This document shows, piece after piece, positions 2,933 through 53,911 of a DNA stretch of 64,000 bases. Positions within the stretch are counted from its first letter, which is position 1. Every line of letters starts with the position of its first letter. The stretch comes from [Synechococcus] sp. NIES-970 (GTDB lineage: Bacteria > Cyanobacteriota > Cyanobacteriia > Cyanobacteriales > MRBY01): NCBI GenBank assembly GCA_002356215.1, contig AP017961.1, forward strand, positions 1 to 64,000, written 5' to 3'. The position numbers were made by a program, and so were the translations under genes. Under the pieces are notes generated by a model. The model did no database searches, had not been told where the DNA came from, and worked only from the letters and a program-made list of their open reading frames with translations.

Positions 2933-3433
2933 TGTTTATGTGGGTACAGTCTTTCTATAACACTGTAAGGCAAGGTTATCCTACTACAACTCACACTGAT
3001 CTATGTGTTGGAACAACAGTCGATATAAAAATTGACGTAGGTTTTAACAAATTTTTTCTTTCTGCATTACAGAGTATTACCATTTTTGGTGTGGCGTTAT
3101 ACCAAATCAATAAATTGCGGATACAGATAATCCCCCCATTAACCATTCCCAGCGGGTTGGGCTCTGCACTTTTTCTGCGGATAATCCCTGAATTCATTCA
3201 CTAATATCCTTCTGCATATCCTTTAGCTTCTTATAAATTCACCATTTCACTGTCCTCTTCAATGCCTGCAAGACTCACTCAGTCCACTTCAGGGAATGCT
3301 TATTTATTGAGAGTAGAAGCACAAAAGCAAAAAGGGACATTGCCGTAACGCCCCCAGTTGAGTGTTTGATCAGGATTCGTGATCTCAGTAATTGAGACGG
3401 GTCTTGATACTTGATGTCGTTTCAGCTGATAGG
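2933..3433. other. Intergenic, no recognisable gene
   Basis: About 500 bases. Short open frames exist on both strands here but have no ribosome binding site, no family resemblance and an atypical composition. I see no repeat, RNA gene or clear terminator. Confidence 0.5.
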
Positions 3434-34758: not shown

Positions 34759-34904
34759 AAGCTTTATGTGATAAAGCTTCTAAGCCGTAAACAAACATAT
34801 AAAAATAGACAAAAAGGAATTAAAGCTTACGATAATCTGAGCCTAAAATCCCTGAAAACATTACTCTGCATGACTTTCAGGGATTCTAATAAGCTTACGA
34901 TAAT
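34759..34904. repeat. Hairpins and short direct repeats in an intergenic region
   Basis: A 9-bp perfect hairpin AAGCTTTAT/ATAAAGCTT lies at 34759-34779. Direct repeats of AAGCTTACGATAAT lie at 34823-34836 and 34891-34904, and between them a 10-bp inverted repeat (ATCCCTGAAA at 34848-34857, TTTCAGGGAT at 34875-34884). The arrangement is reminiscent of a small non-autonomous element or a terminator cluster between the EAL gene and the convergent glutaredoxin-type gene. Open frames over it lack support. Confidence 0.5.
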
Positions 34905-51436: not shown

Positions 51437-51574
51437 CAGTTAAAAAGTCAACAAGTTAACAAGCCAAAAATATGGCTTGTTTTTCTAAAATCAATCCCAC
51501 TGCCCTTAATGTCATGGGTATTGCAATTTTTATGCTAGACTTTTTGGCAAGTCAACTTGTTATATTGTTGACTT
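51437..51574. repeat. Octamer repeats in the parA upstream region
   Basis: A contiguous 8-bp array runs CAGTTAAA, AAGTCAAC, AAGTTAAC, AAGCCAAA at 51437-51468. Another AAGTCAAC lies at 51549-51556, exactly 13 octamers downstream of the first, and an inverted copy, GTTGACTT, at 51567-51574. The same octamer forms a longer array inside the gene after parA. It is the likely binding site of that ribbon-helix-helix partner for repression of parA or as part of the centromere. Confidence 0.75.
51458..51485 (+). terminator. Intrinsic terminator after the response regulator
   Basis: A 9-bp perfect stem (AACAAGCCA at 51458-51466 and TGGCTTGTT at 51473-51481) with loop AAAATA, followed by TTTTC-type sequence. 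It lies 130 bases after the regulator stop and overlaps the end of the octamer array. Confidence 0.6.
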
Positions 51575-51601
51575 CTTAGCTTTCCAACTGGTCAAAAAGT
51601 T

Positions 51602-52345
51602 ATGATCATCGCGCTTTGTAATCAAAAAGGAGGGGTCAGTAAAACCACCTCTACGATTTGCCTGGGAGGACTTTTAGCGGAGTCTGCCAAGGTCCTACTC
51701 ATTGATTTAGATCCCCAAGGGAATTTGACAACGGGGTTAGGGATCGAAGTGGAGGATGATCAACTCACTGCCTATGAGGTCATCACGGAACAATGTTCCA
51801 CTGCGGCGGCGATCGCCCCCACGAAGATCAAAAATCTCGATCTTTTGCCTGCGGATATCAGCCTTGCCAAAGGAGAAACAGAAATTCTCGGTAAGGTCGG
51901 CAATTTTTGTTTATTAAAAGAACAACTCGAAACCGTCTTTGATCAATACGATCATATTTTGATTGATTGCCCCCCATCCCTCGGCTTACTGACAATTAAT
52001 GCCTTAACCGTCGCGGATCAGGTGTTGGTTCCGGTGCAATGTCAATTTTTCGCCCTTAAGGGATTAGCTGCTCTACTCGAAACAATTGAATCAGTCAAAA
52101 AACGACTGAACCCAAACATCGATATTCTGGGGGTGCTACCGACGATGTTCGAGCAAACAGTCATGGCACGGGATGTGATTACTTCTCTCGAAAAGCGATT
52201 TGGCAAAAGCTTAGTGTTTCCTGCTGTCCCGAAATCAGTGCGCTTTGCAGAATCGAATTTAGCCGGAGAACCGATTCACCTCTATGTCAACGAGCACAAA
52301 TTAATTTATCCCTACAAATCAATTATTAAAGCAATGGAGGCCTAA
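51602..52345 (+). CDS. parA: ParA family partition ATPase
   Basis: A 247-residue ParA of the small type without an N-terminal HTH. It has the deviant Walker A KGGVSKTTS, VLLIDLDPQGNLT (Walker A-prime) and HILIDCPPSLGLL (Walker B). It drives segregation of plasmid copies on the nucleoid together with the DNA-binding partner encoded four bases downstream. Absence of an HTH implies that the partner does the repression, fitting the octamers in front of the gene. Confidence 0.95.
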   Translation: MIIALCNQKGGVSKTTSTICLGGLLAESAKVLLIDLDPQGNLTTGLGIEVEDDQLTAYEVITEQCSTAAAIAPTKIKNLDLLPADISLAKGETEILGKVGNFCLLKEQLETVFDQYDHILIDCPPSLGLLTINALTVADQVLVPVQCQFFALKGLAALLETIESVKKRLNPNIDILGVLPTMFEQTVMARDVITSLEKRFGKSLVFPAVPKSVRFAESNLAGEPIHLYVNEHKLIYPYKSIIKAMEA

Positions 52346-52348
52346 ACC

Positions 52349-52741
52349 ATGGCACAACGAAAAATCCGACTGACTGACCATGATCCACTAGAATCTAAGA
52401 CTGACAGTGTTTTGAGCAGTTTTTCTGCACCAAAACAAGTCAACTTTTTAGAAAGTCAACAACCTAACAAGTCAACCAGTCAACAGGCTAAAAAGTCAGG
52501 AAGCCGGCAAGTCAACCAGTCTAGTCAGACTCGATTGAAAAAAGCAACCTATCAAATTGACGACTCGGTGATTGAGCGCTTGGATCGGACTTATCTGCAA
52601 ATGAGTTTGGATCGGGGTAAGCAGGCAACTCCCTATAAGGAGGTTTTAGTGGAAACGGCGATCGCCTATTTTCTAGATCAGCTTGAGGAAAATCCGGATC
52701 TGATTGAGCAGGCTTTGGGTCGGCAGGAGAATCGAGGTTAA
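52349..52741 (+). CDS. ParA partner, ribbon-helix-helix type (ParB-like)
   Basis: A 130-residue protein. Residues 1-65 are polar and probably unstructured (Ser, Gln, Asn and Lys-rich). Residues 66-115 look like a ribbon-helix-helix domain: KATYQIDDSVIERLDRTYLQ, then TPYKEVLVETAIAYFLDQLE. It would bind the plasmid centromere and activate ParA. Strikingly, the DNA for the disordered part contains an array of 8-bp repeats, see the repeat at 52437. Other residues of classical ParB are absent, so it belongs with the ParG/omega kind by design, not by proven homology. Confidence 0.8.
   Translation: MAQRKIRLTDHDPLESKTDSVLSSFSAPKQVNFLESQQPNKSTSQQAKKSGSRQVNQSSQTRLKKATYQIDDSVIERLDRTYLQMSLDRGKQATPYKEVLVETAIAYFLDQLEENPDLIEQALGRQENRG
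52437..52524. repeat. 8-bp periodic array inside the ParA partner gene
   Basis: Eleven successive octamers read AAGTCAAC, TTTTTAGA, AAGTCAAC, AACCTAAC, AAGTCAAC, CAGTCAAC, AGGCTAAA, AAGTCAGG, AAGCCGGC, AAGTCAAC, CAGTCTAG. Four are identical and most others share AGTC or CTAA at fixed places, all in strict 8-bp register. Because 8 is not divisible by 3, the array is not a protein repeat; it looks like a DNA binding-site array (candidate parS) that the gene tolerates in an unstructured region. Confidence 0.8.
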
Positions 52742-52784
52742 GAATTGAATTAGCCCAGATGACATATGATTTCAAAGAAAAAAT

Positions 52785-52875: not shown

Positions 52876-53911
52876 CAGCATTTTTGTGATGGTCGAGGTA
52901 CAATGTCGTGTGTGTGAGTAAATCAGATTAAACAAGAACAACCATTGCCTAAAGCCTACTCCATAGACCTCAGACAGAAAATTGTTGATGCCTATGACCG
53001 GGGGGATATCTCCCAACGTGGTCTCGCCAAGCAGTTCGGTGTCGCTACTAGTTTTGTCCAAAAACTCCTCAAACAACGACGTGATACTGGGTCTATCCGT
53101 CCACAATTTCGTCGGGGGCAGATTCCCCCTAAACTCAATGAAGAACACCGAAAGGTTCTGGCCGCTTTGGTGAAAGCCAACAATGATGCGACTCTGGCCC
53201 AACTATGTGCACAACTAGAAGCCGAGATTGGCATCCGGGTAAGCATCACCACCATGCATAAGACATTGAAGCAGATGAATTTTAGCCTTAAAAAAAACCT
53301 TTTATCCTGACGTCAAGGCGACAGACAGAGTGCAACAGGCCAGAGTCGAGTTTTGGGAGAAAGTAAGGCAGATTTTGGCCCAAGACCTGATATTCATCGA
53401 TGAATCAGGCATTAATCTCGCAATGAGAACAACAAGAGCAAGGGCAGAGAAGGGGAAGCGGGCCTACAGTAGTAAGCCAAGCAAAAAAGGAAAAAATGTC
53501 TCACTGGTAGGAGCATTGGGCTTGCAGGGGATAATCGCCCACAGCAGCTTAATCGGAGCGACAGATAGGGTAACTTTTGAGGCGTTCATTTACCAGAAAT
53601 TGGTGCCGCAGTTATGGGCAGGGGCCTGTGTGATGATGGATAACTGTTCGATTCATCTGGGAGAGATGGTGAGAGAGTCCATTGAGGCAGTGGGAGCAAA
53701 ACTTATCTACTTACCGCCCTACTCACCAGATTTTTCTCCCATTGAGAACTGTTGGTCAAAGGTCAAAAACATCATGAAGCGCAGAACAGTGGGCAGCTAT
53801 GAGGAGCTATCAGAGGCGATTGATGAAGGATTTGCAAGGGTGACACCTGAAGATATCAGAGGGTGGTTCACCCATTGCTGTTACTGTACCTCAGAAGAAT
53901 AGAAAACGCTG
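52876..53911 (+). mobile_element. IS630 family insertion sequence
   Basis: A complete element of about 1036 bp. The ends are imperfect inverted repeats that share CAGC(A/G)TTTT at the tips and GAGGTACA about 22 bases in. It is flanked by TA on both sides (52874-52875 and 53912-53913), the target duplication of this family. Removing it with one TA restores a continuous reading frame in the interrupted minus-strand gene, which confirms both boundaries. Confidence 0.88.
52945..53902 (+). CDS. IS630 transposase in two overlapping frames
   Basis: The first frame (52945-53310, start codon TTG) is the HTH part: YSIDLRQKIVDAYDRGDISQ, then RGLAKQFGVATSFVQKLLKQ. The second (useful part from about 53297 to 53902) holds the DDE catalytic residues: Asp in LIFIDESGIN, Asp in MMDNCSIH and Glu in FSPIENCWSKVK. 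They join at a run of eight A (53290-53297), where FSLKK continues as TFYPDVKATDRV. This is the usual site for programmed ribosomal slippage in the family, so the transposase may be functional. Confidence 0.88.

Follow-up and report, generated by a model that had tools for sequence, protein, structure and literature searches.

A probable partition operon with octamers inside and outside the partner gene

Can a plasmid centromere lie inside the gene of the protein that binds it, and be kept there for the sake of the DNA? The question is raised by a stretch of 64,000 nucleotides (the window) from [Synechococcus] sp. NIES-970, which is part of contig C3 (65,838 bp) in a genome of five contigs and 3.12 Mb. 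Here, a parA gene (51602 to 52345, plus strand) is followed, after a gap of 3 bp, by a gene for a predicted centromere-binding protein of 130 amino acids (52349 to 52741, plus strand; the partner), within which a sequence-only reading had picked out an array of octamers. The explanation that we consider probable is a type-I partition operon consisting of ParA and an octamer-binding ribbon-helix-helix (RHH) partner, with an operator 5′ of parA and the centromere inside the partner gene. The partner protein would then probably help to distribute plasmid copies to daughter cells.

The window ParA is a Walker-type ATPase of 247 amino acids without an N-terminal DNA-binding domain. It matched Pfam AAA_31 (E value of 4.4e-59) starting at residue 2, as well as CbiA, and the closest solved chains were ParA/Soj-type ATPases. 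Its length and the N-terminal position of the Walker motif are those of a small ParA ATPase.

The intragenic array (52437 to 52524, plus strand) is made up of eleven 8-bp cells in strict register with the consensus AAGTCAAC, matched at 8, 2, 8, 5, 8, 7, 4, 6, 5, 8, and 5 of 8 positions; four cells are exact, the second is practically no match and the seventh is weak. Tandem Repeats Finder detected the period of 8 weakly (52453 to 52521, score of 40, 60% matches). Identity at lag 8 amounted to 42 of 80 positions, a value that none of 5,000 dinucleotide shuffles reached at this lag or any other from 5 to 12. When 88-bp segments were scored every 4 bases along the 64 kb, the top 11 all fell at the array (37 to 43), and the next best elsewhere had 36 (at 34773). 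We also redrew the array synonymously, keeping the protein fixed and sampling codons from the usage of the window parA and the 3′ part of the partner; the array score of 61 compared with a mean of 46.4 (SD, 3.4) and was reached by none of 5,000 redraws. The eleven octamers in strict register, four of them exact, that had been described from the letters were thus confirmed far above chance.

Exact copies of AAGTCAAC occur seven times in the window versus 1.85 expected, a number found in none of 100 shuffles. The whole genome (3,123,859 bp) contains 69 exact matches, and the seven on C3 all lie at 51445 to 52516, confined to 1,072 bp at the parA-partner operon, with three of them in non-coding DNA 5′ of parA. 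The upstream copies (51445, 51453 with 7/8, 51549, and, on the minus strand, 51567) form part of two arrays. Array I (51437 to 51468, plus strand) has four direct cells, CAGTTAAA AAGTCAAC AAGTTAAC AAGCCAAA, with 5, 8, 7, and 6 of 8 matches. Array II (51549 to 51582), a proposed operator located 20 to 53 bp 5′ of the parA start codon, holds exact octamers at 51549 (plus) and 51567 (minus) that share a register, and weaker cells (5/8) separate and follow them. Tandem short repeats in a fixed register are found near the operon. A promoter scan upstream of parA returned a single site, on the minus strand and near chance level.

Homologues of the partner and their genomic context

To follow the array among relatives, we used several searches. 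Searching plasmids by tblastn with the partner as the query yielded 13 records, of which ten were homologues and three matched the 3′ tail only. The ten homologue records also carry parA (64 to 69% identity); feature tables were used for eight of these plasmids, with H6 and H7, whose matches resemble that of H5, left out. The annotation in the eight records reads “ParA family protein” or “AAA family ATPase,” plus “hypothetical protein,” and the parA of L015 is unannotated. A first scan of genome contigs with the window partner (P0001) as the query gave zero matches. With a profile of the C-terminal domain (alignment A2), 26 loci were found in genome contigs; this profile matched six of 386 genomes from the phylum, including four that do not belong to the genus of the window. 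A scan of viral contigs showed no relative.

We counted 33 loci (the window plus 32 cyanobacterial homologues) out of 40 that had an RHH match. Five of the seven that were dropped (L020, L021, L022, L045, and L051) have divergent partners with short linkers without the KSTSQQ-like repeat, and the other two (L023 and L047, on the same contig) are one broken locus present twice, with parA spread over two frames, an interrupted partner frame, and octamers that are still recognizable. Just 3′ of the divergent partner genes of L045 and L051 there are other tandem repeats, with units of 14 bp (3246 to 3297) and 13 bp (3344 to 3386), respectively, which may serve these partners as centromeres located outside the gene.

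The counted partners share an architecture of a basic N-terminal segment, a linker of 30 to 316 amino acids rich in KSTSQQ-like repeats, and a C-terminal domain. The N-terminal segment (26 amino acids, 52349 to 52426 on the plus strand in the window) is conserved in alignments A1 and A3, with the A1 consensus MAKRRxRLNDxNDPLSSTDxVLAGFEQ, and is a candidate ParA-contact peptide. In L032 and L040 the open frame lacks the N-terminal motif, and the linker was counted from the frame start. By eye, this N terminus (VLAGFE in most homologues) resembles part of the N-terminal peptide of P1 ParB (ILSGFD), as given in PMC9499535.

A parA gene precedes the partner gene in 29 of the counted loci, and contig ends cut the remaining four (L032, L036, L037, and L042); for the 32 homologous loci this means 28 upstream parA genes, with 64 to 85% identity (in three pieces in L015). 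Such a constant position of the array-bearing gene behind parA, in every locus that reaches far enough, speaks against reading the arrays as replication iterons, i.e., origin repeats bound by an initiator rather than by a ParA partner. Origins inside an initiator gene are known, as in pSK41 rep (PMC5703833), but no initiator was found within ca. 2 kb on either side in the eight plasmid tables, themselves incomplete, and a unit of 8 bp present in both orientations also fits iterons poorly. We regard this reading as very improbable.

Predicted RHH-like domain at the C terminus

In the AlphaFold2 model of the full-length partner, residues 6 to 63 had a pLDDT of <50 and the remainder was well predicted, while residues 60 to 130 modeled alone reached a mean pLDDT of 91.5. 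This predicted DNA-binding domain (52529 to 52738, plus strand) has a confident helix-helix arrangement after an extended stretch; the ribbon strand is not visible in the monomer model. When it was aligned with VIA-align to F TraM (4qpo), the solved part of which is an RHH domain, Z was 6.3, under the safe level of the tool, with an rmsd of 1.9 over 53 residues. Foldseek gave the domain a TM score of 0.80 by target, but with an E value of 6.1, and for the partner models it gave no match at an E value of 0.001 or better (2.7 or worse for the full-length protein). The A2 profile had no match among solved chains at E values up to 10, a relation to omega included, and neither did this search reveal a sequence relation to ParG of TP228. 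Pfam RHH_3 matched weakly (best E value of 0.012) in two of 19 members, and by eye the conserved C-terminal sequence, with a short T-F-Q-L stretch and two helices, suggests an RHH fold. Taken together, the models, the structural alignment, and the conserved sequence moderately support a ribbon-helix-helix-like C-terminal domain, the rest of the protein being predicted as disordered.

No Pfam or NCBIfam model matched the window partner above its cutoff. Pfam DUF3984 stayed below it (21.3 versus 22.1 bits) and spans residues 15 to 67, mostly of low complexity. ParB CTPase and HTH domains were absent at E values up to 1 from P0001 and L012 (Pfam and NCBIfam), L041 (Pfam), and L016 (NCBIfam), and membership in the HTH ParB/Spo0J family was rejected, as there was no ParB-type match to the partner.

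Linker arrays persist while the linker protein drifts

The comparison among relatives that the sequence-only reading had proposed came out in favor of the array. All 33 partner genes have octamer arrays in the linker-coding region, with 5 to 53 octamers each, while the linkers vary in length and protein sequence. Runs of at least four contiguous cells of ≥5/8 are present in 32 of the 33 linkers, and 261 of 308 neighbor spacings (octamers of ≥7/8, up to 80 bp) were multiples of 8, with 79, 101, and 128 spacings in the three classes modulo 3. The register changes between arrays within single genes (L012 and L016 to L019), so only local register counts, and a long-range register between the upstream copies and the intragenic array was left unused.

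The same reading had argued that, 8 and 3 being coprime, the array must be conserved as DNA and not as protein. This argument fails, since a perfect (AAGTCAAC)n encodes KSTSQQVN cyclically in all three forward frames without a stop; on the reverse strand, every frame contains one. Three octamers add up to 24 bp, so that a protein repeat is unavoidable and cannot by itself show which level is selected. It may be that the octamer is kept partly for this stop-free reading as one octapeptide in all forward frames. Sense octamers far outnumbered antisense ones in the 33 linkers (165 versus 2 exact, 353 versus 27 at ≥7/8), a bias that may be due to the stops on the reverse strand.

The periodicity could also come from the protein side, with the linker as a low-complexity KSTSQQVN tether, flexible or sticky, and the DNA pattern as a by-product of 24-bp tandem expansion. 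The three-frame octapeptide is in line with this, as are the linker lengths, which differed by multiples of 8 amino acids in 8 of the 16 differing pairs (18 compared). There are also recent tandem duplications, with a 48-bp unit in L014 (by eye) and a 141-bp unit in L016 and L017, to which the DNA likeness in some genes is partly due. Mismatches to the octamer had an N/S ratio of 0.5, i.e., synonymous opportunities were taken twice as often as non-synonymous ones, so the linker peptide is not wholly free.

We nevertheless consider an origin from the protein alone unlikely, as codons favor the octamer to a degree that the protein does not require. In each of the 33 linkers, the octamer score was higher than the mean of 300 synonymous-codon shuffles that kept the protein and took their codons from parA and the RHH part (z values of 2.9 to 16); 30 linkers beat all 300 shuffles, and L013, L018, and L046 tied with the highest. 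For 616 linker octamers, chosen at ≥6/8, the match to the consensus was 0.86, 0.885, and 0.82 at codon positions 1, 2, and 3, and 0.85, 0.88, and 0.81 for 220 octamers from 17 representatives after removing repeated contexts. As the third codon base, octamer position 6 was A in 256 of 257 cases; the exception was octamer position 5, with 39% C and 56% T, still a pyrimidine.

A shift towards octamer codons was also seen without any selection of octamers, when the linkers were compared with parA plus the RHH part: AAG (0.63 versus 0.35; Fisher P = 7e-18), TCA (0.33 versus 0.15; P = 2e-13), AGT (0.36 versus 0.17; P = 2e-13), ACA (0.49 versus 0.24; P = 8e-14), and CAA (P = 0.002). Codons that did not follow the octamer were AAC (P = 0.08) and GTC, which went down (0.16 versus 0.23; P = 0.07) while GTT went up. 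Linkers lean to A-ending codons outside the octamer as well (GAA, 0.88 versus 0.65; CCA), and base composition therefore accounts for part of the codon shift, though AAG runs in the opposite direction.

Divergence between relatives gave a further argument against selection on the protein alone. In 13 pairs pooled (18 were compared, five of them without a parA comparison), pS and pN were 0.256 and 0.147 in the linker, 0.327 and 0.051 in the RHH part, and 0.308 and 0.024 in parA. Drift is thus about six times as fast in the linker protein as in ParA, with silent-site divergence not raised, the linker pS being below the parA pS in only 9 of the 13 pairs.

Non-coding octamers upstream of parA

The case for selection at the DNA level is made by codon choice together with the non-coding copies and their register. 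Since the copies upstream of parA do not code for protein, the octamer most likely functions as DNA, and the presence of these copies on both strands and in register is hard to reconcile with a by-product of protein expansion. We counted 38 octamers of ≥7/8 (either strand) in the 150 bp 5′ of parA at 27 loci, close relatives included, versus 5.4 in shuffles (at most 13 in 200 shuffles). The count exceeded the shuffle mean of the locus itself in 17 of the 27 loci and did not in 10. Per kilobase, octamers at this threshold numbered ca. 1.4 in distant flanking DNA, 1.9 within parA, and 9.7 in these 150 bp. A k-mer count made without the motif at 20 upstream loci had GTTGAC, ACTTGT, and CAAGTT as the top 6-mers and TAACTTGT as the top 8-mer, all of them fragments of the octamer lattice or single-base variants of it.

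The sequence-only reading had also placed the upstream octamers at multiples of eight. The copies are real, but the 104 bp between 51445 and 51549 are, taken alone, a one-in-eight coincidence, and the claim of an upstream register rests for this reason on the pooled register in homologues, for which 19 representatives were used. At ≥6/8, these had 125 sites, 63 on one strand and 62 on the other. Among non-overlapping sites, 77 of 118 same-strand spacings were multiples of 8, compared to a mean of 3.8 and a highest value of 25 register pairs for 200 control octamers, whose highest number of sites was 99. These controls were permutations with ≤5/8 matches to any rotation of the motif (200 of 664 eligible). 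An initial set of 150 permuted octamers, from which only exact rotations had been barred, reached 96 register pairs, above the 77 observed; we attributed this to near-rotations of the motif, hence the stricter set.

Offsets between non-overlapping octamers on opposite strands equaled 2 modulo 8 in 66 of 98 cases, so that both orientations lie mostly on one lattice, as is the case for the omega heptads. Near-palindromic cells (AAGTTAAC), which fit either strand, account for part of this register. At ≥7/8, the register was found in 8 of 12 same-strand and 11 of 14 opposite-strand cases. Eleven of the 19 representatives have upstream runs of four or more cells; in five of the 19, the longest run was reached by 78 to 200 of 200 shuffles that preserve base composition only. 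Two loci have peculiarities in this region. In L009 (reverse strand), a longer tandem repeat of several tens of base pairs with inverted octamer-like cells was seen by eye 5′ of parA, and in L013 (822 to 923 and 1816 to 1895) there is a second parA-start fragment 5′ of parA, with octamers of 7/8 also in the parA-partner gap.

Array II ends ca. 20 bp 5′ of the parA start codon, as would suit a role in autoregulation, and RHH partition proteins regulate their own genes via sites overlapping the promoter (PMC9499535). All octamers might then be operator sites, including a roadblock-type operator downstream, with the centromere elsewhere or absent. The 5 to 53 octamers per gene would not be needed for repression, and the window array lies >800 bp inside the operon, which makes this quite improbable in our view. 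In pSM19035, the repeats double as operator and centromere (PMC9499535), and the operator-only reading is therefore not exclusive of a centromere.

Proposed mechanism and comparison with known systems

We thus favor the type-I partition operon with its centromere inside the partner gene. C-terminal dimers of the partner would bind 8-bp cells (consensus AAGTCAAC, core AGYYA) in either orientation, end to end and in one register. The upstream arrays would be the operator and a secondary centromere, and the array in the linker-coding DNA the main centromere. At a row of bound dimers, nucleoid-bound ParA would meet many flexibly tethered copies of the conserved basic N-terminal peptide, which may stimulate the ParA ATPase.

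A bolder extension, which we offer tentatively and think rather doubtful, is that the centromere is itself translated, so that its DNA encodes the tether and the copy number of the array sets both dimer load and tether length. If true, a single tandem expansion would tune both together, along the range of linkers from 30 to 316 amino acids.

Among partition systems, ParF/ParG of TP228 also combines a ParA-type ATPase with a small RHH partner that has a flexible N-terminal tail, as predicted here, and its repeats differ from the octamer arrays in type and place. Another likeness is to the delta (ParA) and omega (RHH ParB) pair of pSM19035, in which, as is proposed here, a small RHH partner recognizes contiguous non-palindromic repeats in either orientation and the arrays overlap promoters (PMC9499535). 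One omega dimer occupies a single 7-bp repeat in direct or inverted orientation, and full activation of ParA requires four contiguous repeats (PMC9499535). However, the unit is 8 bp (AAGTCAAC) here and 7 bp (WATCACW) there, and the main array here lies inside the partner coding sequence.

The location inside the gene has its parallel in SCP2 of Streptomyces coelicolor, where the parS centromere lies within the coding sequence of its binder ParT and ChIP-seq of ParT shows a peak over its own gene (PMC12260392). The likeness to the arrangement proposed here is in this location. SCP2 has a single inverted repeat of 18 bp and a ParB-like protein that works independently of CTP, in contrast to tandem octamers that form the linker and an RHH-like partner. 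In the RepA_N plasmid pSK41, four Rep boxes are located in the DNA coding for the linker of the initiator, and the linker protein is dispensable for replication (PMC5703833). Binding sites, proposed ones in the present case, in DNA encoding the protein's own linker are common to both cases; pSK41, however, concerns replication, a winged-HTH initiator, and four boxes, and the present locus partition and an expanding octamer array.

A centromere in the gene of its binder (SCP2 ParT) and an origin in the linker-coding part of an initiator gene (pSK41) were already known. A literature search, with subscription journals mostly outside it, found no octamer array described in a cyanobacterial partition gene. 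Within the literature searched, what is new is a tandem RHH-type array that forms the linker of its proposed binder and expands with it, across a family of cyanobacterial plasmids.

If the proposed function is true, this family of plasmid partition systems would gain a defined centromere and a binding code, as the partition counterpart to origins located inside initiator genes. A single stretch of DNA would have to satisfy both an 8-bp binding register and a 3-bp reading frame, and natural arrays ranging from 5 to 53 octamers are available for comparison. The locus could also serve as a stability cassette for vectors of Picosynechococcus and related organisms.

Copies of the 3′ tail of the partner gene

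Downstream of the operon in the window there is a transposase-like gene, judged by eye, in two open frames (52945 to 53310 and 53330 to 53902). Among plasmids, the only near DNA matches to the 3′ end of the partner gene were three Picosynechococcus records, which tentatively places the window in this genus. The last ca. 84 bp of the gene (52657 to 52744 in the window) recur without the rest of it at five other loci, with ca. 77 to 83% identity: L024 (1414 to 1500), L025 (849 to 936), L026 (pAQ5; 108 to 191), L011 (91 to 174), and L010. These loci belong to Picosynechococcus or to the genus of the window, and the tails have no exact octamer. Each copy starts at the HIP1-like GGCGATCGCC, which L024 and L011 carry exactly and the others with one or a few bases changed. 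In L024 and L025 the copy lies directly behind unrelated par cassettes, and in L024 GGCGATCGCC is in frame after the ParB stop. This looks like an exchange of par cassettes at GGCGATCGCC that left the old 3′ tail behind.
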